A stretch of 20,193 nt of DNA from a virus. Below the pieces are notes generated by a model that saw only the letters and a program-made list of their open reading frames with translations, was not told the origin of the DNA and did not search any database. Shown here piece after piece: positions 319 through 18,916 of this stretch. The stretch spans positions 1 to 20,193 of IMG/VR virus record IMGVR_UViG_3300017788_000231, one strand, 5' to 3'. Position numbers and translations under genes: made by a program. How positions within the stretch are numbered: the stretch's first letter is position 1; every line of letters starts with the position of its first letter.

Positions 319-2013
319 ATGCCTACATATTCGATAATACCTTCGGGCACAGCACTATACGAAGGAGAAGCAGTTACTTTTACGATAAATTTAACAGATG
401 TTCAATTAGGATCTACCCTTTATTGGAATACTGTGCAGGTATCGGGAGTAATAACCACAACAACATTCACTGATCAGATCACCAGCGGATCTTTGACAGT
501 CACTGGAAACACCCTGTTTTTGACTAGAACTACAGCAGTGCAACCAGAAGAACAAACAAAGTCATTTAGGATAACTCTAATGACTGATTCTGAAAACGGT
601 GTTCCGGTGACTACTAGTGTTCCGGTGATCATAGAGGATTCAGAGCAGGCTCCCTCTTCATCGTCGCAGCCCCTGGTAGCATCGGGGGGATTTGCTGTCG
701 GAGATCCGCCCAAAATAGTCATAGATTCTAATGGGACTTCTTCCCTTACTAATGGTGTTTTTTCTGGAAATCTGTTTGTAGAGGGTGACATATCGAGGCT
801 TAATACTGAGGTAGAAATTGGAGACAAGATTGTAAGTTTAAACACAGAAATATCTTCGGATATTACTGCATTAAATGGGGGCATCGTTCTGAGAGGAACC
901 ACTAATAAAACGGTGTTGTGGACTTCGGTCGACACTATTGAAGCTTGGACTTCTAATCAAAATTTTAATTTAAACACCGGAAAAGCTTACCTAATTAATA
1001 ATGCACAGGTCATAAATTCTACCTCTTTGGGCGCAGGAGTTACCAGTTCTAGCCTAACTTCGGTGGGAACTATCAATACGGGTGTCTGGCAAGGCACTAT
1101 CATTTCCCCGCAGTACGGCGGGACGGGAATCAACAATGTCAACAAGACTATCACTTTAGGTGGTGACCTCCAGACCGCCGGCGCAGTAACACACAGCGGA
1201 GCCCATTCGTTGACCGTGACTACTACAGAGACCACATCAGTGACGTTGCCCGTTTCCGGCACGTTGATTTCTACTACTAGCACAGGTGCCGTAACTAATG
1301 CCATGTTGGCCAACAGCAGCATAACAGTCAATGGGGCCACTGTCTCATTGGGCGGCACTGTTAATACCCCAAATACTACCTATGCGATTTCAGCAGAAAC
1401 CGCCACAGGCGGAGTCAATCTAGCACTCACTGACAGCAGCAACACTGTGGATAATGTAAGATTTGCACAGGGAACCAATGTAACCATAGCGAGAACTAAT
1501 GCTGACACCATAACTATCTCGTCCACTGATACCACTTATTCGGCAGGCACCGGCGTCACGCTTACCGGAACTTCATTTAGTATAGGGCAGACCGTGGCTA
1601 CAAATTCGTCTGTGACATTTTCGTCGATCAACCTAGGGTCGGCTTCTGGAGCTACGACAGGACAGCTTAGAGCTTCAGACGATATCATCGCTTTCGCGTC
1701 ATCGGATCTCGCTCTGAAAGAAAATATATCAGTTATTACAAACAGTCTCGATAAAATCAAACAGTTAAAGGGCGTGGTCTACGATTGGACTGACGAATAC
1801 ATCCAGCGGAAAGGCGGATTAGATCCCGTGTATCTAAGAAAAACCGATGTGGGGTTGATAGCACAAGATGTAGAAAAGATATTGCCCGAAATAGTGGCTA
1901 AAAGACAGGACGGCTACCTAGCTATAAAATACGACAGGATCGTAGCATTGTTAGTAGAAGCGATCAAAGATCTTTCTTCAGAAATCGACGAGCTAAAGAA
2001 AAATGCCGGTTAA
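319..2013 (+). CDS. Tail-fibre-like protein with N-terminal Calx-beta-like domain and C-terminal S74 chaperone
   Basis: This 564-aa protein is a probable trimeric tail fibre or spike. Residues 1-115 form one Calx-beta-like beta-sandwich (YEGEAVTFTINL ... FRITLMTD) related to the repeats of the next gene. Residues about 130-455 are Ser/Thr/Gly-rich beta-repeat text typical of phage fibre shafts (GTINTGVWQGTIIS, YGGTGIN). Residues 461-564 are an intramolecular chaperone of the peptidase S74 family: SSDLALKENI, then VGLIAQDVE and a final helical segment. The Ser462-Lys467 spacing matches the S-x4-K catalytic dyad known from endosialidase tailspikes, so self-cleavage just before Ser462 after trimerisation is likely. 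It has its own late-promoter-like box, and its last 11 bases overlap the next gene, suggesting coupled translation. The fibre role is inferred from the domains; the receptor is unknown. Confidence 0.85.
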   Translation: MPTYSIIPSGTALYEGEAVTFTINLTDVQLGSTLYWNTVQVSGVITTTTFTDQITSGSLTVTGNTLFLTRTTAVQPEEQTKSFRITLMTDSENGVPVTTSVPVIIEDSEQAPSSSSQPLVASGGFAVGDPPKIVIDSNGTSSLTNGVFSGNLFVEGDISRLNTEVEIGDKIVSLNTEISSDITALNGGIVLRGTTNKTVLWTSVDTIEAWTSNQNFNLNTGKAYLINNAQVINSTSLGAGVTSSSLTSVGTINTGVWQGTIISPQYGGTGINNVNKTITLGGDLQTAGAVTHSGAHSLTVTTTETTSVTLPVSGTLISTTSTGAVTNAMLANSSITVNGATVSLGGTVNTPNTTYAISAETATGGVNLALTDSSNTVDNVRFAQGTNVTIARTNADTITISSTDTTYSAGTGVTLTGTSFSIGQTVATNSSVTFSSINLGSASGATTGQLRASDDIIAFASSDLALKENISVITNSLDKIKQLKGVVYDWTDEYIQRKGGLDPVYLRKTDVGLIAQDVEKILPEIVAKRQDGYLAIKYDRIVALLVEAIKDLSSEIDELKKNAG

Positions 2014-5000
2014 ATCATCGGGCCAGTTATCCTTCACAGATCTAGCCACTGAATTTCCAGACACTGCTCCTTTCTCTATCGCAGACTATTATCGAGGAGG
2101 TGGACTAGTTCCTGATGCGCCGGTTAACTCGCAGGTTCCGGTCGCCGGACCGATAAGATTTTCAAATTTTTATGGTGCTACCTATATACTCTATGCGTTT
2201 GGTACTATACCTACTAGTTTAAACGAAGGAGTATCGGGCGTATTTAACGTATCCACTGTAGGTATAGCTAATGGAACCACGTTGTATTGGACTATAAATC
2301 TCGCGGGTAATCTAAACAGCAGCGATTTTTCCGCGACCAGCGGCAGTTTCGTAATCAACACAAATGCAGGTAATTTTTCGATAACTACGATCGCTGACGA
2401 ACTCACAGAGGGTGCAGAAACATTCACAGTCAGCGTGAGGACAGGAAGCACTATCGGTCCGGTCGTAGCTACCAGCAATTCTGTGACCATCAACGACACA
2501 TCTCTGACGAGAACCTATGCGTTTGGTACCATACCCACGAACATCAACGAAGGCGGCTCAGCTACGTTCAACGTCACTACCACCAATGTGCCTAACGGCA
2601 CTACCCTTTATTGGACTATATTAAACAACACGACCACCAATGCTGATTTTTCCGCAACCAGCGGAAGTTTCACTATCAATTCAAACGCGGGTAGTTTTAC
2701 TGTGACACCTACAGCCGATCAACTCACAGAAGGCGCAGAATCATTCCGTGTAGAAGTGCGAACCGGCAGCACTTCGGGAACAGTGAGAGTAACCAGCAAT
2801 TCTGTGACAGTCAACGACACATCTCTGACGAGAACCTATGCGTTTGGTACCATACCCACGAGCATCAACGAAGGCAGCTCAGGTACGTTCAACGTCACTA
2901 CCACCAATGTGCCTAACAGCACTACCCTCTATTGGACCATATTAAACAACACGACCACCAATGCTGATTTTTCCGCGACCAGCGGAAGTTTCACTATCAA
3001 TTCAAACGCGGGTAGTTTCACCATATCTCCTAGAGCAGACACCACCACAGAGGGTGCAGAAACATTCCGTGTAGAAGTGCGAACCGACAGCACTTCGGGA
3101 ACAGTGAGAGTGACCAGTAATTTAGTGACCGTCAATGACACGTCTTTAAATCCTTCAACCTACTCTATAGGATCAACTAATATCGCTAGAATAATCGAAG
3201 GATATAACGCTTTTTTTACCGTATTTACTACAGGAGTAGCATCGGGGACGACATTGTATTGGAATATAGAAGGTGTGTCCGGACCGGCCCCTAACTTAGT
3301 TTCAACCGCGCTACTCAACGGATCGGCCGGAATCCTTCCGCAAGAAACACATTTCCTGGAAATTTTTAATAGTAGACGATTGGGAGATATCGACAACAAC
3401 GGCACTCTTAGTTCCTTTGACACTCTTCAACACATGAGATGGGCCTATGATACAACTGGGTCTGCGATCCCTTCCGATCAGTCAACATATATCGTAGACA
3501 CGCTTTATCCGAGACTTCGTAGCGACGCTACCAAATACTCCTATGTATACGGGCCTGCGGCCTCTACAGCTGACTTTTTATTCTCGCAGGGTTCTTTTGC
3601 AATAGGTACTAACGGCCAAGGCGGTATAACGATATCACCAATGCATGAGGCAGCAACCGGAGAAAATGACGAAACGTTTCGTATAAGATTATTTACCGAC
3701 GCAGCCCGCACTAATCTAGTAGCCACTAGCCATACCATAGCTATAGTCGAACCAACATACTCAGTGACTGTTCCGGCCAGTATCAACGAAGGAACCGCAG
3801 GAACATTTACTGTAAATACTGCCGGCGTTTCTAATTCTACTATCCTTTATTGGACCATATTAAACGTTACGACCACCAATGCTGATTTTTCCGCGACCAG
3901 CGGCAATTTCACCATCAACTCAAACACTGGTAGTTTTACTGTGACACCTACAGCAGACGCTGCCACAGAAGGTTCAGAAACCTTCCAAGTACAGATAAGA
4001 ACAACTAGCACCAGCGGTACTATCAGAGCCACTAGTTCGTCAGTCACCATAAATGACACGTCTCGGACTCCTGCGGCCACATACAACTTTGGTACCATAC
4101 CCACGAGCATCAACGAAGGCAGCTCAGGTACGTTCAACTTTACTACCGCCGGTGTGCCCAACGGCACTACCCTATATTGGACTATAAATCTCTCGGGTAA
4201 TCTAAACAGCAGCGATTTTTCCGCGACCAGCGGCAGTTTCACTATCAATTCAAACGCAGGTAGTTTTTCGATAACTACGATCGCCGATCAACTCACAGAA
4301 GGCGCGGAATCATTCACAGTCAGCGTGAGGACAGGCAGCTTTTCTGGGCCTGTGGTGCGGACTAGTAATTCCGTGACCATCAATGACACATCTCTGACGA
4401 GGACCTATGCATTTGGTACTATACCCACGAGCATCAACGAAGGCAGCTCAGGTACGTTCAATGTCACTACCACCAATGTGCCCAACGGCACTATCCTATA
4501 TTGGACGATAAATCTCGCGGGTAATCTAAACAGCAGCGATTTTTCCTCGACCAGCGGCAGTTTCACTATCAATTCAAACGCAGGCAGTTTTTCGATATCT
4601 ACGATCGCCGATCAACTCACAGAAGGCGCGGAATCATTCACGGTATCTATCAGGACAGGCAGCATTTCTGGGCCTGCGGTGCGGACCAGTAATTCCGTGA
4701 CCATCAATGACACATCTCTGACGAGGACCTATGCATTTGGTACTATACCCACGAGCATCAACGAAGGCAGCTCAGGTACGTTCAACGTCACTACCACCGG
4801 TGTGCCCAACGCCACTACCCTTTATTGGATAATATTGCATTCAACCACCGCAGGTGCAGATTTCATAACAGCCAGTGGAACATTCATTATTAACAGTAAC
4901 AGAGGCAGTTTTGTCGTATCTCCTACAGCAGACGCTATCACAGAGGGTGCCCAAACATTCCGTGTAGAAGTAAGAACAGATTCTTTTTCTGGAACCGTGA

Positions 5001-6199
5001 GAGCTACCTCTGGACTCGTCACTGTCAACGATACATCTACTTCCCCCACATACAACTTTGGTACTATACCCGCGAGCATCAACGAAGGCAGCTCAGGTAC
5101 GTTCAACGTCACTACCACCGGTGTGCCCAACGGCACTACCCTATATTGGGCGATAAATCTCACAGCAGTAGTCACTAGCGGCGATTTTCCCGCGACCAGC
5201 GGCAGTTTCACTATCAATTCAAATGCCGGCAGTTTCGTCGTATCTCCTAGAGCAGACGTTAGCACAGAGGGTGCAGAAACATTCACGGTATCTATCAGGA
5301 CAGGCAGCATTTCTGGTACTGTGGTGCGGACCAGTAATTCTGTGACCATCAATGACACATCTCTGACAGCTCCTGGGCAAGTTTCGAGAACTACGGCTGG
5401 AACTACAACATGGGTTTGCCCAACTGGCGTTACATCTGTCAGTGTGCTTTGTATCGGTGCTGGCGGTGGCGGAAAATATAATGGCGGTGGTGCCGGCGCT
5501 GGCGGGAACCTAGCTTACAGAAATAATATGACAGTGACACCCGGAGTTACATATTATCTAAGAGCCGGCACTGGTGGTCTAGGCAGCGCCTCCGGAACGG
5601 GAGATGCTGGCGTTGGTGGAACTTCGTGGTTTAATACCAGCAGTACTAGTGCAGGTACAATGATCTTTGCAGGGGGTGGCGATGGAGGTAAGGGAACCAG
5701 CGGATTTAGCGCTCCATATACTGCCCTTAGACAGGGCGGTCTTCCTAGCACCGCTACTCCACCGACAGCATCAAATGTTACCACGCATCGTGGGGGCCAA
5801 GGCGGTAATGGCAGCACTAGCCGAGGAGCAGGAGGTGGCGGTGCTGGCGGGTATACCGGTACCGGCGGCCGTGGCGCAGGAACCAACGGTAATGCTACTG
5901 GCGGTAATAACGGTGGTGGTGGTGGCGGATATAGCGGCAACGATCGAGGAGGTCTTGGTGGCGGTACCAGAATCTTTGGATCTGGCGCCAGTGGCAGTGG
6001 TGGTAGCAACGTTACTACAGGAATCGGCGGTAATGGTGGGGATGGCGGAACTGGAACTACTACAGCATACGGTAAAGGCGGCCCTGCTGATACCGGTAGT
6101 GCTACCAGCACCGCCCTTAATGGTACTAACGGTGCTGTGCGTATTCTATGGCCTGGTATTACTAGATCTTGGCCTAGCACCGGAATCGCCGATCAATGA
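2003..6199 (+). CDS. Giant fibre/adhesin: nine Calx-beta-like repeats, dockerin-like loop, glycine-rich tip
   Basis: This 1398-aa virion protein is probably a distal fibre or adhesin. Residues 1-62 are a short head common to T4-like marine phage fibre proteins (LSFTDLATEF, IADYYRGG, GPIRFSNFYGA). Residues about 63-1122 hold nine beta-sandwich repeats of about 107-108 aa with the pattern INEG..GTFNV, DFSATSGSF, TEGAE.F.V and VTINDTS, as in calcium-binding Calx-beta domains. Repeat 4 carries about 91 extra residues including a dockerin/EF-hand-like loop at 462-473. Residues about 1125-1375 are glycine-rich (GAGGGG, GGNNGGGGGG), like phage fibre-tip domains. The end, GAVRILWPG...SWPSTG, is a family signature I recall from marine phage fibres. 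The ATG at 2003 overlaps the previous stop and has no strong Shine-Dalgarno. Receptor binding is inferred. Confidence 0.8.
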   Translation: MPVKSSGQLSFTDLATEFPDTAPFSIADYYRGGGLVPDAPVNSQVPVAGPIRFSNFYGATYILYAFGTIPTSLNEGVSGVFNVSTVGIANGTTLYWTINLAGNLNSSDFSATSGSFVINTNAGNFSITTIADELTEGAETFTVSVRTGSTIGPVVATSNSVTINDTSLTRTYAFGTIPTNINEGGSATFNVTTTNVPNGTTLYWTILNNTTTNADFSATSGSFTINSNAGSFTVTPTADQLTEGAESFRVEVRTGSTSGTVRVTSNSVTVNDTSLTRTYAFGTIPTSINEGSSGTFNVTTTNVPNSTTLYWTILNNTTTNADFSATSGSFTINSNAGSFTISPRADTTTEGAETFRVEVRTDSTSGTVRVTSNLVTVNDTSLNPSTYSIGSTNIARIIEGYNAFFTVFTTGVASGTTLYWNIEGVSGPAPNLVSTALLNGSAGILPQETHFLEIFNSRRLGDIDNNGTLSSFDTLQHMRWAYDTTGSAIPSDQSTYIVDTLYPRLRSDATKYSYVYGPAASTADFLFSQGSFAIGTNGQGGITISPMHEAATGENDETFRIRLFTDAARTNLVATSHTIAIVEPTYSVTVPASINEGTAGTFTVNTAGVSNSTILYWTILNVTTTNADFSATSGNFTINSNTGSFTVTPTADAATEGSETFQVQIRTTSTSGTIRATSSSVTINDTSRTPAATYNFGTIPTSINEGSSGTFNFTTAGVPNGTTLYWTINLSGNLNSSDFSATSGSFTINSNAGSFSITTIADQLTEGAESFTVSVRTGSFSGPVVRTSNSVTINDTSLTRTYAFGTIPTSINEGSSGTFNVTTTNVPNGTILYWTINLAGNLNSSDFSSTSGSFTINSNAGSFSISTIADQLTEGAESFTVSIRTGSISGPAVRTSNSVTINDTSLTRTYAFGTIPTSINEGSSGTFNVTTTGVPNATTLYWIILHSTTAGADFITASGTFIINSNRGSFVVSPTADAITEGAQTFRVEVRTDSFSGTVRATSGLVTVNDTSTSPTYNFGTIPASINEGSSGTFNVTTTGVPNGTTLYWAINLTAVVTSGDFPATSGSFTINSNAGSFVVSPRADVSTEGAETFTVSIRTGSISGTVVRTSNSVTINDTSLTAPGQVSRTTAGTTTWVCPTGVTSVSVLCIGAGGGGKYNGGGAGAGGNLAYRNNMTVTPGVTYYLRAGTGGLGSASGTGDAGVGGTSWFNTSSTSAGTMIFAGGGDGGKGTSGFSAPYTALRQGGLPSTATPPTASNVTTHRGGQGGNGSTSRGAGGGGAGGYTGTGGRGAGTNGNATGGNNGGGGGGYSGNDRGGLGGGTRIFGSGASGSGGSNVTTGIGGNGGDGGTGTTTAYGKGGPADTGSATSTALNGTNGAVRILWPGITRSWPSTGIADQ
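2192..5369 (+). repeat. Nine in-frame tandem repeats of about 321-324 bp
   Basis: Units begin near 2192, 2513, 2834, 3158, 3755, 4079, 4403, 4727 and 5048, giving spacings of 321-324 bp except repeat 4 (597 bp, carrying an insertion). Many start with TATGCGTTTGGTAC or a close variant, followed by a conserved block encoding INEG. Copies 2 and 3, and copies 6, 7 and 8, share long near-identical DNA stretches. The repeats are coding and each encodes one Calx-beta-like domain. They could recombine with each other and are also prone to collapse in short-read assembly. Confidence 0.9.
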
Positions 6200-7556: not shown

Positions 7557-8276
7557 ATGCGTGCTCGAGAATTTTTAAAGGACGATCTGTCTGTTAAGAC
7601 TAATATCGATTATCATCAAAGATTAAATCCAGCAACCTGGGATGATGATCAATTGAAGTCGGACATCAGAGAGAGATTGATAGAAATCGCAGAAAGATTT
7701 GTAGAATATTTAGAAATAGAAAACTTCTATATCGAAGACATAGTACTAACTGGGTCTATGGCTAACTTTAATTGGACCGAATACAGCGACTTTGACGTGC
7801 ATGTAATCACCGATTATAAGAAATTAAATTGTGATGATATCGCCGAGGCATTCTACACCGCCAAGAAAAAGATATGGAACGACGAAAACGATATAATGAT
7901 TGTTGGGCACGAAGTCGAAATGTATGTGGAAGATATCGCCCAGCCGTCTGTGAGCCAAGGAACATATAGTCTATTAAATGATACATGGAAGAACAAACCG
8001 TCATACAACCCACCAAAAATCAACGACAGCGCCGTAGATATCAAGACCAAATCGTTGGCGCAATTCATCGATAAAAGCATCAACAAACACGATACCTCTG
8101 AAGAACTAAAGCGTTTGATGACGAAAATAAGAAACATGCGTAAATCAGGCCTAGAACAAGCCGGCGAGTTTTCCACCGAAAACCTAGCTTTCAAAATACT
8201 GAGAAATCAGGGCTATCTCGATAAATTAAAAAATGCTATATTGGATAGACAGAGCCAAGAATTAAGCATCAAATAA
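7557..8276 (+). CDS. Nucleotidyltransferase-fold protein
   Basis: This 239-aa protein carries the signature of the polymerase-beta-like nucleotidyltransferase fold: LTGSMANFN (Gly66-Ser67) followed by SDFDVHVITDY (Asp78 and Asp80), the GS-x10-DxD arrangement that binds nucleotide and metal. A third acidic candidate lies in GHEVEMYVED (Glu119 or Glu121). The C-terminal half (about 160-235) is charged and helical. I recall similar proteins in marine T4-like phages annotated only as nucleotidyltransferase; substrate and target are unknown. The N-terminus MRAREFLKDDL resembles short leaders seen on other phage proteins. The ATG at 7557 lies 3 nt after the gp13-like stop with AGGA just upstream, so translation is probably coupled. 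RNA, protein or antibiotic modification are all open options. Confidence 0.7.
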   Translation: MRAREFLKDDLSVKTNIDYHQRLNPATWDDDQLKSDIRERLIEIAERFVEYLEIENFYIEDIVLTGSMANFNWTEYSDFDVHVITDYKKLNCDDIAEAFYTAKKKIWNDENDIMIVGHEVEMYVEDIAQPSVSQGTYSLLNDTWKNKPSYNPPKINDSAVDIKTKSLAQFIDKSINKHDTSEELKRLMTKIRNMRKSGLEQAGEFSTENLAFKILRNQGYLDKLKNAILDRQSQELSIK

Positions 8277-14903: not shown

Positions 14904-15266
14904 ATGTCAAATTTACCTAGACCCGAAATCAACTCAGATACTGAAGTTAGAGATTTTTTTGACGGTTATTTTATACAACCTATTTCATTTCCTTCTAACG
15001 AACTAGATGCAACTATCGGTTATTTCAAAGGTCGAGGATTCGACGATGTGTCAGCTAACGCAGTTTCGGTAGTGATATTAAGGCAGGCCAAGGTCGACAA
15101 CATCAAGATATTTGAATTGTTAGATTCACTTAAGAATATTTCAGACGTAAAACTATTAGGAGCAGTAGTGGAAATTTTAAACTACGATAGGGAAGCTGTT
15201 AGCGTATTAGGATATAGATTTCCTAAAGAATTTGATAGCTACGAGTCTAGAAATATTAGACTATGA
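14904..15266 (+). CDS. Conserved phage protein of unknown function, 120 aa
   Basis: I cannot assign a function to this small acidic, helical protein. It reads VRDFFDGYFIQPISFPSNE, DATIGYFKGRGFDDVSANAV, VILRQAKVDNIKIFELLDSL, LGAVVEILNYDREAVSVLGYR. I recall similar proteins in marine T4-like phages next to tail or head-completion genes, usually called structural or hypothetical. Its stop overlaps the gp4-like start by 4 nt (ATGA), so the two are probably co-translated and may act together in head or tail completion. The ATG at 14904 follows an A-rich stretch with neither a Shine-Dalgarno nor a clear TAAATA box, and lies 15 nt after the previous stop. Confidence 0.75.
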   Translation: MSNLPRPEINSDTEVRDFFDGYFIQPISFPSNELDATIGYFKGRGFDDVSANAVSVVILRQAKVDNIKIFELLDSLKNISDVKLLGAVVEILNYDREAVSVLGYRFPKEFDSYESRNIRL

Positions 15267-15694
15267 AAAGATTTGCGCAGGGAAAATTCGAATTAAAACA
15301 TCCTGAAAAATATATAGGTCTAGGTCTACCTAGATATAGATCTAGTTGGGAATGGGCAGTAATGCGTATGTGTGACAACAATTCTTCGATAACGAAATGG
15401 GCATCGGAGAGTATACAAATACCATATAGGGACCCATTGACCGGAAAATATACCATATATGTTCCTGATTTTTTTATAAATTTTGTAGATAAGACCGGCA
15501 AACAGCACGCTGAACTATGGGAAGTAAAACCGGAAAATCAAGCTTTAAGGGAACGGGTAGGAAAAAATAAAATTAATCAAGCACATTACATACGAAATAT
15601 GGCTAAATGGGAAGCTGCTAATGCTTGGTGTAGACAAAAAGGCCTGAGATTTAGAGTCCTTTCGGAGAATGACATCTTCCATAAGCATAAATGA
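15263..15694 (+). CDS. 4: Head completion protein, nuclease fold (T4 gp4-like)
   Basis: This 143-aa protein resembles T4 gp4 (about 150 aa), needed to finish DNA-filled heads before tail joining and reported to be a nuclease. The shared opening is QGKFELKHPEKYIG...YRSSWEWAVMR, followed by WASESIQIPYRDPLTGKY. A PD-(D/E)xK-type active site can be read as Glu in SSWEW, Asp in YVPDFFI and Glu-x-Lys in LWEVKP. The C-terminus has a basic helical stretch (ERVGKNKINQAHYIRN) and WEAANAWCRQKGLRFRVL, also typical. It overlaps the upstream 120-aa gene by 4 nt. It lies just before the small terminase gene, a different place from T4, where gene 4 is followed by 53 and 5. Confidence 0.85.
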   Translation: MKRFAQGKFELKHPEKYIGLGLPRYRSSWEWAVMRMCDNNSSITKWASESIQIPYRDPLTGKYTIYVPDFFINFVDKTGKQHAELWEVKPENQALRERVGKNKINQAHYIRNMAKWEAANAWCRQKGLRFRVLSENDIFHKHK

Positions 15695-15700
15695 TAAGTA
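15693..15700 (+). promoter_or_regulatory. Degenerate late-promoter-like box GATAAGTA
   Basis: The sequence differs from GATAAATA at one base and ends 7 nt before the gp16-like ATG at 15708, with ACT directly before the ATG as in other close-spaced boxes. It overlaps the gp4-like stop codon. This is the weakest of the close-spaced group. Confidence 0.25.
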
Positions 15701-15707
15701 TTTGACT

Positions 15708-16214
15708 ATGACTAAAAAATTAGAAGAATTACTAAACCTTCCAGAAACTAGAGAGCTGGTCAAAGAGCAGAACGCTGCGTCTAAAATAGATAAAAAAGAA
15801 AAGATTAAGTCTTCAGTGCCTGCAGAAAATTTTTTTAAAAGCATCGACGAATTTGATAAGATATCCTCGGCACTACCGCAGGTTAACGGACTAGGAGATC
15901 TATCGGACACTGAATTTGACGAGCTAGCAAAAAGAGCTACTGATGCCTATGACGATTTAATGGATCTTGGTATGAATGTAGAACCTAGATATTCCAGCAG
16001 GATTTTCGAGGTAGCCGGAACAATGCTAAAAAATGCCATAGATGCTAAAGCAGCAAAAATCGATAAAAAACTAAAGATGGTCGAATTACAGCTGAAAAAG
16101 CACAAGATCGATCAAGATTCTAAAGGAAAGTCCTCGGATGATCCTGCAGAAGGAGAAGGATTTTTGATAACCGATAGAAATAGTCTTTTGGAAAAATTAA
16201 AGAATATAAAATAA
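15708..16214 (+). CDS. 16: Terminase small subunit (T4 gp16-like)
   Basis: This protein of about 168 aa recognises phage DNA and regulates the packaging motor gp17; T4 gp16 is 164 aa. It begins MTKKLEELLNLPETRELV, as I recall for marine gp16 proteins. A central helical core follows (DLSDTEFDELAKRATDAYDDLMDLG, then PRYSSRIFEVAGTMLKNAID), and then a Lys-rich coiled-coil-like helix (AKAAKIDKKLKMVELQLKKHKI), matching the long helical hairpin that makes the small-terminase ring. I prefer ATG 15708 over an in-frame ATG at 15669, which would overlap the gp4-like gene by 26 nt and add 13 residues unlike the family. No Shine-Dalgarno is obvious. Confidence 0.8.
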   Translation: MTKKLEELLNLPETRELVKEQNAASKIDKKEKIKSSVPAENFFKSIDEFDKISSALPQVNGLGDLSDTEFDELAKRATDAYDDLMDLGMNVEPRYSSRIFEVAGTMLKNAIDAKAAKIDKKLKMVELQLKKHKIDQDSKGKSSDDPAEGEGFLITDRNSLLEKLKNIK

Positions 16215-16222: not shown

Positions 16223-16756
16223 ATGAAAACATTCGTAGAATATCTAACTGAAAGCCGGAAGACCTATAAATTTAAAATCAAGGTAGCTGGTGACCTTGGA
16301 GAAAATTTTAATGCAGATTTAAAAGCTGCCTTAGATAAATTTTCAGTAGTCAAACTCAGTTCAGGAAAACGCACACCTATTCAGGAAGTTCCTTTAGATT
16401 TTCCTGATACTAGAAACAGTCATGTAACTATCTACGAAGCAGAGATAGGCTATCCCACTACACCTCAGGTATTAACTGACTATATCGTAAGCTGCTGTAA
16501 ATGCACGCATGCTGATATCAAAGTCCGAGGTGAAAACGAACCGACCGAGGCGTATCAACAACAGAAAACCGAAGGTGGCGACGACAGCGCACAAGATCAA
16601 GTCGGCCAAAAGCGAGTGTCTGATTTTATCAAAGAGCTGGCAGCAGAAGCTAAAATGCGGAGCTGTGAAGGTCAACCTAGAGAAGTAGAATCTAAAATGC
16701 CTGAGCCTGGACCTGCAGTGAGTCCTATAGGTTCTAAGGTCCAAAAAGGAAAATAA
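16223..16756 (+). CDS. Unassigned 177-aa protein with a capsid-targeting-like leader
   Basis: The function is not recognised. The N-terminus MKTFVEYLTES closely resembles the T4 capsid-targeting sequence MKTYQEFIAE of internal proteins, and LTE before Ser fits the gp21 prohead protease rule (Leu/Ile-x-Glu, then a small residue). Residues about 15-100 look like a compact alpha/beta domain (KTYKFKIKVAGDLGENFN, HVTIYEAEIGYP, LTDYIVSCCKCTHADIKVRG). The C-terminal 75 residues are polar and probably disordered (QQQKTEGGDDSAQDQ, PGPAVSPIGSK). It sits between the two terminase subunits. I infer a protein placed inside the prohead before packaging; a cytoplasmic packaging factor is the alternative. 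The box is 5 nt upstream, with no Shine-Dalgarno. Confidence 0.65.
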   Translation: MKTFVEYLTESRKTYKFKIKVAGDLGENFNADLKAALDKFSVVKLSSGKRTPIQEVPLDFPDTRNSHVTIYEAEIGYPTTPQVLTDYIVSCCKCTHADIKVRGENEPTEAYQQQKTEGGDDSAQDQVGQKRVSDFIKELAAEAKMRSCEGQPREVESKMPEPGPAVSPIGSKVQKGK

Positions 16757-16758
16757 TC

Positions 16759-17262
16759 ATGGATTTTTATAAAGTTTATTCTAAGATCAGAGAAATAGAT
16801 CAAGGTAAATCAACCATCACAGAAAACTGCGGGGCATCGATGCCCGGAACGCAGATACCCACAGCACCACCCATACCTCCTGTTTCGATGAACATGAACA
16901 TATCGGCGCAGGGAGTGGATCAAATTAAAGAATTAATATCTCTGATTAGTGCTACCCAGCCAGCAGATAAACCCGGACCTAGCAGCGATATAATTGATAT
17001 AGAACCAAAAGCCGACATTGGAAAAGATCAAGGATTACCGGATCTATTGAAATTAGCAGGTGCTGGGGAAAAAGAAAGTTATGCTAACGAGCCAGAAGAA
17101 AGAATATCCAGCATAGATAAGATATTACCAAGCGGTGATGATCTACATAAATCTAAGCGCATGTTCAAAAAAGCCAACGGCGGAGATAACGCTATGGCTA
17201 TAGAGGGCATTCGTGCTCAGTTAGATCGAAGATATCGAGAAATCAAAGAAGGCAAAGAATAA
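16759..17262 (+). CDS. Conserved marine-phage protein of unknown function, 167 aa
   Basis: This is a low-complexity, mostly helical and disordered protein. It opens MDFYKVYSKIREIDQGKS, passes through a Pro/Met-rich segment (GTQIPTAPPIPPVSMNMN), a helix (GVDQIKELISLISA) and an acidic region. It ends in KANGGDNAMAIEGIRAQLDR...EIKEGKE, which I recall as a recurring C-terminal motif (GGDN.MA.E.I...L...Y.EIKE) in proteins of marine T4-like and other phages. No enzyme motif is seen. The ATG at 16759 lies 2 nt after the previous stop and has AAGGA 9 nt upstream. A strong terminator follows its stop, so it closes a transcription unit with the preceding gene. A packaging or head-assembly role is suggested only by position. 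Confidence 0.7.
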   Translation: MDFYKVYSKIREIDQGKSTITENCGASMPGTQIPTAPPIPPVSMNMNISAQGVDQIKELISLISATQPADKPGPSSDIIDIEPKADIGKDQGLPDLLKLAGAGEKESYANEPEERISSIDKILPSGDDLHKSKRMFKKANGGDNAMAIEGIRAQLDRRYREIKEGKE

Positions 17263-17320: not shown

Positions 17321-18916
17321 ATGCCGAGTAAAAGCCTAGATGGCGTACTGATTAAAAAAGCTAATCGCCAAGAGCGATTCAACGAATCGCATATTGAAGA
17401 TCTTATGCTTTGTGCAGATACCGCAACAGGGTATCTACATTTTGCTAAGAACTTTTTTTATATACAACATCCTGTAAAAGGAAAATTACTTTTCCAACCG
17501 TATCAGTACCAAGTAAACCTTCTTCACAGTTATAATAATAATAGATTTAACATAAACATGTTACCACGTCAAAGTGGTAAGACTACTTGTGCTGCAGGAT
17601 ATTTACTATGGTACGCTATGTTTCATCCGGACCAAACTATATTAGTAGCAGCACACAAATATATAGGTGCTCAGGAGATCATGCAGCGTATCCGTTATGC
17701 CTACGAAGATTGCCCTGATCATATACGCTGCGGTGTAACTAACTATAATAAAGGCAGCATCGAATTTGATAACGGAAGTCGAATAGTGTCGGCGACCACC
17801 ACAGAAAATACCGGCCGGGGTATGAGTATATCCTTGCTGTATTGCGACGAATTTGCGTTTGTGCAGCCCAACATCGCTGAAGAATTTTGGACCTCTATAT
17901 CACCCACATTGGCCACCGGCGGCCGTGCGATTATTACTAGTACACCGAATTCTGACGAAGACACATTCTCTACCGTATGGAAAGAAGCTAATAAAAGATT
18001 TGATGATTACGGTAACGAAACTGAACTAGGAATCAACGGATTCTATCCATTTACTGCACACTGGAACGAACATCCAGACAGAGATGATGACTGGGCTAGG
18101 GAAGAACGAGGTAGAATTGGAGAAGAGCGATTTCGACGAGAATATGGTTGTGAGTTTTTAGTCTACGACGAGACCCTGATAAATTCTATCACATTAGCCG
18201 GCATGTCTGGGATCGACCCTGTGCTAAAAATGGGTCAATGTAGATGGTATAAAAAACCCAGAGATGAAATGATCTATGCAATAGCTTTAGATCCTGCACT
18301 AGGTACCGGAGGAAATAATGCAGCTATAGAAATAATAGAACTTCCGACCATGGAACAAATAGGAGAATGGCATCATAACACTACTCCTGTAGAAGGGCAG
18401 ATTAAGATATTAAAAGACATCAACAAATACATCGCTGACTGCTGCCCAAAAATGAATGGACAAAATATCTATTGGAGCGTAGAAAATAATACCGTAGGTG
18501 AAGCAGCATTGATAGCTATAAAAAACCTAGGAGAAGAAAACATTCCAGGACTTTTTATCGCCGAGGCGATACGAAAAGGACATGTCCGTAAATTTAGGAA
18601 AGGTTTCAATACCACGCATAAAAGTAAAATATCAGCATGTTCTAGATTGAAATTTTTCATAGAAAGCGGTAAGATGAAGATATATTCAAAACCATTAATA
18701 TCTGAGCTAAAGTCTTTTATAGCTACAGGAGTGACGTTTAAAGCTAAATCGGGAGAAACTGACGATTTAGTCAGCGCAATGTTGTTAGCTGTTCGAATGA
18801 GTGCGGTAATGTCGGACTGGGACTCAAGGATATTTGATATTATGACCGATATCGGTACTGACGATGTGGTAGATTTTGAACCTCCGATGCCTATCTTTGT
18901 TTCAACTAATTTCTAA
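17321..18916 (+). CDS. 17: Terminase large subunit, packaging ATPase and nuclease (T4 gp17-like)
   Basis: This 531-aa motor pumps DNA into the prohead and cuts the concatemer; T4 gp17 is 610 aa. The ATPase domain shows Walker A PRQSGKTT (82-89), Walker B LLYCDE (172-177, with Asp176 and catalytic Glu177) and the coupling motif TSTPN (206-210). The RNase H-like nuclease domain shows Asp324 (YAIALDPALGTGG), Glu388 (YWSVENNT) and Asp481/Asp482 (SGETDDLVSAM), matching the T4 catalytic triad Asp401, Glu458 and Asp542. The N-terminal part is about 75 aa shorter than in T4. A terminator and a late-promoter-like box separate it from the upstream genes, and two unassigned genes lie between it and gp16. 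Confidence 0.95.
   Translation: MPSKSLDGVLIKKANRQERFNESHIEDLMLCADTATGYLHFAKNFFYIQHPVKGKLLFQPYQYQVNLLHSYNNNRFNINMLPRQSGKTTCAAGYLLWYAMFHPDQTILVAAHKYIGAQEIMQRIRYAYEDCPDHIRCGVTNYNKGSIEFDNGSRIVSATTTENTGRGMSISLLYCDEFAFVQPNIAEEFWTSISPTLATGGRAIITSTPNSDEDTFSTVWKEANKRFDDYGNETELGINGFYPFTAHWNEHPDRDDDWAREERGRIGEERFRREYGCEFLVYDETLINSITLAGMSGIDPVLKMGQCRWYKKPRDEMIYAIALDPALGTGGNNAAIEIIELPTMEQIGEWHHNTTPVEGQIKILKDINKYIADCCPKMNGQNIYWSVENNTVGEAALIAIKNLGEENIPGLFIAEAIRKGHVRKFRKGFNTTHKSKISACSRLKFFIESGKMKIYSKPLISELKSFIATGVTFKAKSGETDDLVSAMLLAVRMSAVMSDWDSRIFDIMTDIGTDDVVDFEPPMPIFVSTNF

Follow-up and report, generated by a model that had tools for sequence, protein, structure and literature searches.

A candidate T4-type capsid-targeting leader on a conserved virion protein family of T4-like and jumbo phages

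Why does a viral protein encoded among terminase genes begin like the internal proteins of phage T4, and where would such an N-terminus take it? The question arises from one gene in the window, by which we mean the whole 20,193-nt stretch of viral DNA analysed (IMG/VR record IMGVR_UViG_3300017788_000231).

The gene, its neighbours and its family

The ORF at 16223..16756 (+ strand, as are the neighbouring genes and the features mapped within it) is real, and the ATG at 16223 is the sole usable start within its open frame. It encodes a protein of 177 aa that begins MKTFVEYLTESRKTYKFKIK. Upstream lie a gene for a gp4-type head completion/closure protein with a TnsA-like fold (15263..15694; phrog_218, 5e-38; PF08722, 6e-22) and, directly before the gene, a TerS-like ORF (15669..16214; phrog_16202, 4e-16; phrog_445 terminase small subunit, 2.6e-5). 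Downstream, an ORF whose own N-terminus ends in ITE at residues 20-22 (16759..17262) precedes the gene for the terminase large subunit, TerL (17321..18916; phrog_36964, 5e-117; PF03237; PF17289). The location between the terminase genes that the original prediction had given is correct, with one extra ORF before TerL.

The same prediction held that the body of the protein resembles nothing that could be named. This did not hold up: a profile search matched residues 2-138 to phrog_14802, annotated as virion structural protein (E=3e-8), and annotated structural proteins of five phages (PA5oct, RaK2, CBB, GAP32, and 121Q) are among the homologues. Further named homologues are found in relatives of PA5oct and in Munch, Serratia BF, Atu_ph07, Phosso, and Vibrio 2.275. 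Hosts include Agrobacterium, Sinorhizobium, Pseudomonas, Vibrio, and enterobacteria, and many phages with the gene are uncultivated; a relative is encoded in more than 570 of the 600 IMG/VR stretches listed, which is a lower bound. In RaK2-like phages, genes for the sheath and tube-like proteins are followed by that for gp4 head completion, by a small ORF, and then by the family gene, and the window has the same arrangement. The match to the profile extends over most of the protein and, together with this gene order, places the window protein in the phrog_14802 family. It shares with the members RaK2 ORF047, CBB_210, 121Q gp557, and PA5oct EST35_0202 the leader, the ferredoxin-like domain described below, and the neighbourhood, whereas its C-terminal region differs from theirs and several members lack Glu10 or have Leu or Lys at position 11.

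That homologues are part of the virion is known from the data of others. Mass spectrometry of virions detected CBB_210 through 13 unique peptides that cover 60.5% of it (PMC5259590), and the record of PA5oct EST35_0202 is annotated as found by ESI-MS/MS. Sequence searches of the PDB returned no relative of the family protein, and searches of Pfam and NCBIfam gave no significant match for the 177-aa protein. The C-terminal motif searched alone had no match in the named phages. Using the Atu_ph07, PA5oct, and Vibrio proteins as queries for related loci yielded nothing new, and one alignment was too divergent for use. We also considered gp270c of phAPEC6 as a family member, with a listed mass of 16.2 kDa, and could not safely equate the two.

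Likeness of the leader to those of T4 internal proteins

The first ten residues, MKTFVEYLTE (16223..16252), align residue by residue with MKTYQEFIAE, the start of T4 ipII and ipIII as translated from NC_000866, where Ala follows. Five of the ten positions are identical (1, 2, 3, 6, and 10), and three more are conservative (F/Y at 4, Y/F at 7, and L/I at 8). T4 ipI begins with MKTFKEF and has its LxE-type site at STITE, followed by Ala (NC_000866). In T4, leader mutants have shown that targeting depends mainly on residues 4 and 7 and processing on residues 8 and 10; a leader with Asp10 is inhibited in processing with its targeting intact (PMC9026906). The cleavage rule of gp21 is L/I-x-E in the same work. 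The ten-residue leader of the window protein falls within the length of 10-19 residues that defines T4-type capsid-targeting sequences and has Phe4 and Tyr7 at the targeting positions, and L8-T9-E10 followed by Ser11 satisfies the rule, with the predicted Glu10-Ser11 site at 16250..16255. T4 gp61.1 (gene 61.1, L237:18969-19130) also starts close to capsid-targeting leaders (MKTFKEFIKED), with Asp after the LxE-type Glu10.

Such a short likeness could be fortuitous. We scanned 3,342 gene-like ORFs of PA5oct, Vibrio 2.275, CBB, Atu_ph07 (400 kb), and most of T4, together with those of two large genomes of uncultivated relatives (257 and 358 kb), using simple gene calling and pieces of 20 kb, the cutting of which loses some ORFs. 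The fixed-register motif M-x-x-[FLY]-x-x-[FYLI]-[LIV]-x-E-[SAG], set up after the finding was seen, occurs at seven of the 3,342 ORF starts versus one of 10,789 internal methionines (Fisher p=2.6e-4), and shuffled N-termini gave an expectation of 0.65 such starts. Two of the seven starts belong to T4 ipII and ipIII, two to gp22 (in Vibrio 2.275 and CBB), and three to family members (in Atu_ph07, Vibrio 2.275, and the 257-kb relative); the member of the 358-kb relative (MRSFIEVLQES) fails the strict motif because of Val at position 7. A looser motif was only mildly enriched at ORF starts; the claim of a leader rests on the fixed-register form.

Conservation of the leader across the family

All 89 near relatives have Glu10, followed by Ser in 78 and by Ala in 11; P2 varies freely, and both TCN and AGY codons are used for Ser11. 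One of the two patterns used to gather relatives overlaps the site; a search with patterns outside the leader still yielded starts of the types MKHFRDYLIES, MKRFSDYLMES, and MKNFKQYLTES, in which LxE followed by Ser is kept. After clustering at 70% identity, 85 non-redundant members had a readable leader, and an 86th (L275) had no leader at its called start. Glu10 is kept by 78 of these 85, and a hydrophobic residue occupies position 4 in 100%, position 7 in 98%, and position 8 in 100%.

The loss of Glu10 is confined to one part of the tree, which is built on few columns and has several long branches. Glu10 is kept in every one of the 68 rows that fall outside a single supported clade of 18 rows. 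The cultivated jumbo phages belong to this clade, and within it well-supported branches force at least five changes at the position, so that cleavage is not common to the whole family. Glu10 is missing in PA5oct, RaK2, Phosso, Munch, and others. Its replacement is Asp, as in Hallingskeid, RaK2, and Serratia BF, or else Ser, Ala, or Gly, and these members retain positions 4, 7, and 8. Among the cultivated members, Atu_ph07 and Vibrio 2.275 have LTE followed by Ser, and 121Q has LTE followed by Lys. Homologues lacking the leader had been named beforehand as evidence that would speak against the proposal. What we found is divided: Glu10 changes repeatedly, but the hydrophobic pattern persists, as the T4 rule would predict, in our interpretation, if targeting was retained and cutting dispensable. 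The conservation of Glu10 also runs contiguously into the conserved residues 13-18 and hence could be structural.

Predicted structure

The structure prediction proposed along with the leader was run with AlphaFold2 on 41 sequences (mean pLDDT 72). It gave a leader helix (residues 4-10), a linker containing the putative site (11-14), a domain (15-103; 16265..16531) with the conserved PLDFP and mostly pLDDT >85, a stretch of low confidence, and a C-terminal helix (123-147; 16589..16663) that carries a conserved AQDQVGQKR-type motif. The domain is predicted as strand-helix-strand-strand-helix-strand, and "ferredoxin-like" refers to this order of predicted elements only. Because the site lies within the linker, a cut there would leave the domain whole. 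A model of the CBB homologue (26 sequences) has the same order of elements, with a leader helix at pLDDT ~57. A second conserved L/I-x-E with P1 at residue 138 (40 of 41 sequences) was considered as a possible C-terminal site; it is within the predicted helix and followed by Leu.

The C-terminal motif also occurs outside this context. In L011:3896-4819 and in L012, AQDQVGQKR (residues 123-131 of the window protein) recurs nearly letter for letter in a protein of 308 aa whose N-terminal domain is very diverged, and the motif may represent a binding element that moves on its own.

A gp21-type protease and candidate sites in relatives

The original prediction suggested looking for a gp21-like protease in the remainder of the genome. 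None is encoded within the 20-kb window fragment, but a PF03420 protease (gp21-type, S77) is present in one copy in each of the ten complete cultivated relatives and also in both large uncultivated ones. Sequence matches beside the protease in these relatives point to candidate substrates: gp23 starts with LLE-S or LTE-S and LxE-G sites, and a small core protein starts MLDEIFE followed by Ala, or similar. The gp22 scaffold of RaK2-like phages starts MSKLDKFLNE followed by Ser, or similar. In CBB this gp22 leader has the same pattern and type of site as the family member of that phage (MNKLQKILTE; six of ten residues identical), whereas beyond the leader gp22 is unrelated to the family protein, being a long scaffold in which LxE sites are numerous. 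In L081:6001-8200, a gp21-like ORF lies two genes after the family member, whereas in the large relatives the distance exceeds 40 kb; this placement is either a rearrangement or a chimeric assembly.

Function of the family protein

Taken together, we regard it as fairly probable that this is a head protein conserved among jumbo and T4-like phages, brought into the prohead by a T4-type capsid-targeting leader, cut after Glu10, and kept in the head. Residues 1-10 would form an amphipathic helix, with hydrophobic residues at 4, 7, and 8, that docks the protein on a prohead core of gp22-type scaffold, which in several relatives bears the same kind of leader. During prohead maturation, a gp21-type protease would cut after Glu10 and free the ferredoxin-like body with its C-terminal helix, to be left in the head as a structural protein. 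Where Glu10 is absent, the leader would act in targeting as before and remain on the protein. For the window protein itself we infer targeting, cleavage, and an internal location from these comparisons; its final location is probably the inner head, and trimming of the leader by gp21 in this phage appears likely. Against this reading stand the absence of Glu10 in several lineages, the lack of gp21 in the window, and a body unrelated to the T4 internal proteins.

With T4 IPII and IPIII (and IPI) the window protein has in common the length of the leader, the hydrophobic positions 4/7/8, and L/I-x-E followed by S/A at 8-11, as well as a gp21-type protease in its relatives and the presence of its homologues in virions. 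The match of the window protein to phrog_2667, in contrast, covers residues 1-31 only (E=0.013), and the strongest such match among relatives (L074) covers residues 1-39 (E=1.6e-4). The T4 internal proteins are divergent, whereas this is a conserved syntenic gene for a folded domain, with the site lost in some lineages. The window protein falls outside the homologous family of IPI-III, its mature body having no homology to them, and the family is better described as head proteins with a capsid-targeting sequence (CTS) and a conserved body of their own.

The most serious competitor is a permanent docking helix, never cleaved, on a neck, portal-vertex, packaging, or capsid-surface protein, whose likeness to the T4 leader would reflect a similar mode of helix binding. 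The gene does lie among those for gp4, TerS-like protein, and TerL, the spacing from Met1 to the first strand is constant, lineages with a changed Glu10 still have the protein annotated as a virion protein, and phAPEC6 is rich in unassigned outer-layer and vertex proteins (PMC7247149). We nevertheless think it unlikely, since elsewhere in the scanned genomes the motif occurs only on prohead core proteins, and the retention of Glu at P1 and Ser/Ala at P1' with a variable P2 is what the gp21 rule predicts. Another rival is a factor for early host takeover that is injected along with the DNA, in the manner of T4 IPI or Alt. The original prediction had raised such a role, and the same type of leader does load T4 IPI-III, of which IPI is an injected inhibitor (PMC9026906). 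Jumbo phages of unrelated hosts, however, have it as a single, conserved gene in a fixed order with those for sheath, tube, gp4, and TerS-like proteins; the gene encodes a conserved folded domain instead of a fast-diverging body, and profile searches gave no effector-like match. This role therefore seems very improbable to us. A chance likeness, in which a short amphipathic N-terminus happens to end in LxE, gains something from a short motif defined post hoc with a mildly enriched looser form, but we find it scarcely credible given the enrichment of the fixed-register form and its retention throughout the family, also in clades that searches without leader patterns brought up.

A further possibility, which we rate as distinctly improbable, is that the family is a component of a proteinaceous inner body, delivered to the prohead core by the T4-type leader, which would stay attached where Glu10 is lost. 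Bubblegram imaging has revealed an axial inner-body rod in 121Q (PMC5646251) and phAPEC6 (PMC7247149). 121Q carries the family, while N3, PAU, G, and PBS1, which had no rod in the bubblegram study, have records in the searched collection and are not among the organisms tallied with a family match. This comparison, of one phage against four, makes a weak case for a link to the inner body; the family can be counted among the candidates for inner-body proteins in RaK2-like phages. If the head-protein reading set out first is correct, a widespread virion protein family of jumbo phages gains a predicted cleavage site and a way of entering the head, and the T4 capsid-targeting rule would cover, besides divergent internal proteins, a structural protein that is conserved. 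The natural Glu10/Asp10/Ser10/Ala10 series parallels the mutational experiment in T4.

Additional observations in the window and in relatives

The slot between the family gene and terL is very variable in size among relatives, from 167 to 1,158 aa (window 16759-17262; L002:4501-7974, L049:5651-7672, L062:6552-8003, L074:6560-9712). Several versions of its protein have PG_binding_1 domains, and many have an LNE-S/A- or LTE-S-type site near the N-terminus or preceding a conserved "ASMNISMN..." module; the slot may encode modular head cargo. Elsewhere in the window, a nucleotidyltransferase-like protein (7557-8276; PF01909, phrog_36119) has a leader-like N-terminus, MRAREFLKD, without an L/I-x-E site. 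Finally, an ORF of 1,398 aa (2003-6199) consists of many near-identical repeats of ~100 residues (FGTIPTSINEGSSGTFNV...VTINDTSLTRTY) and a glycine-rich C-terminal part, and is probably a fibre or decoration protein.
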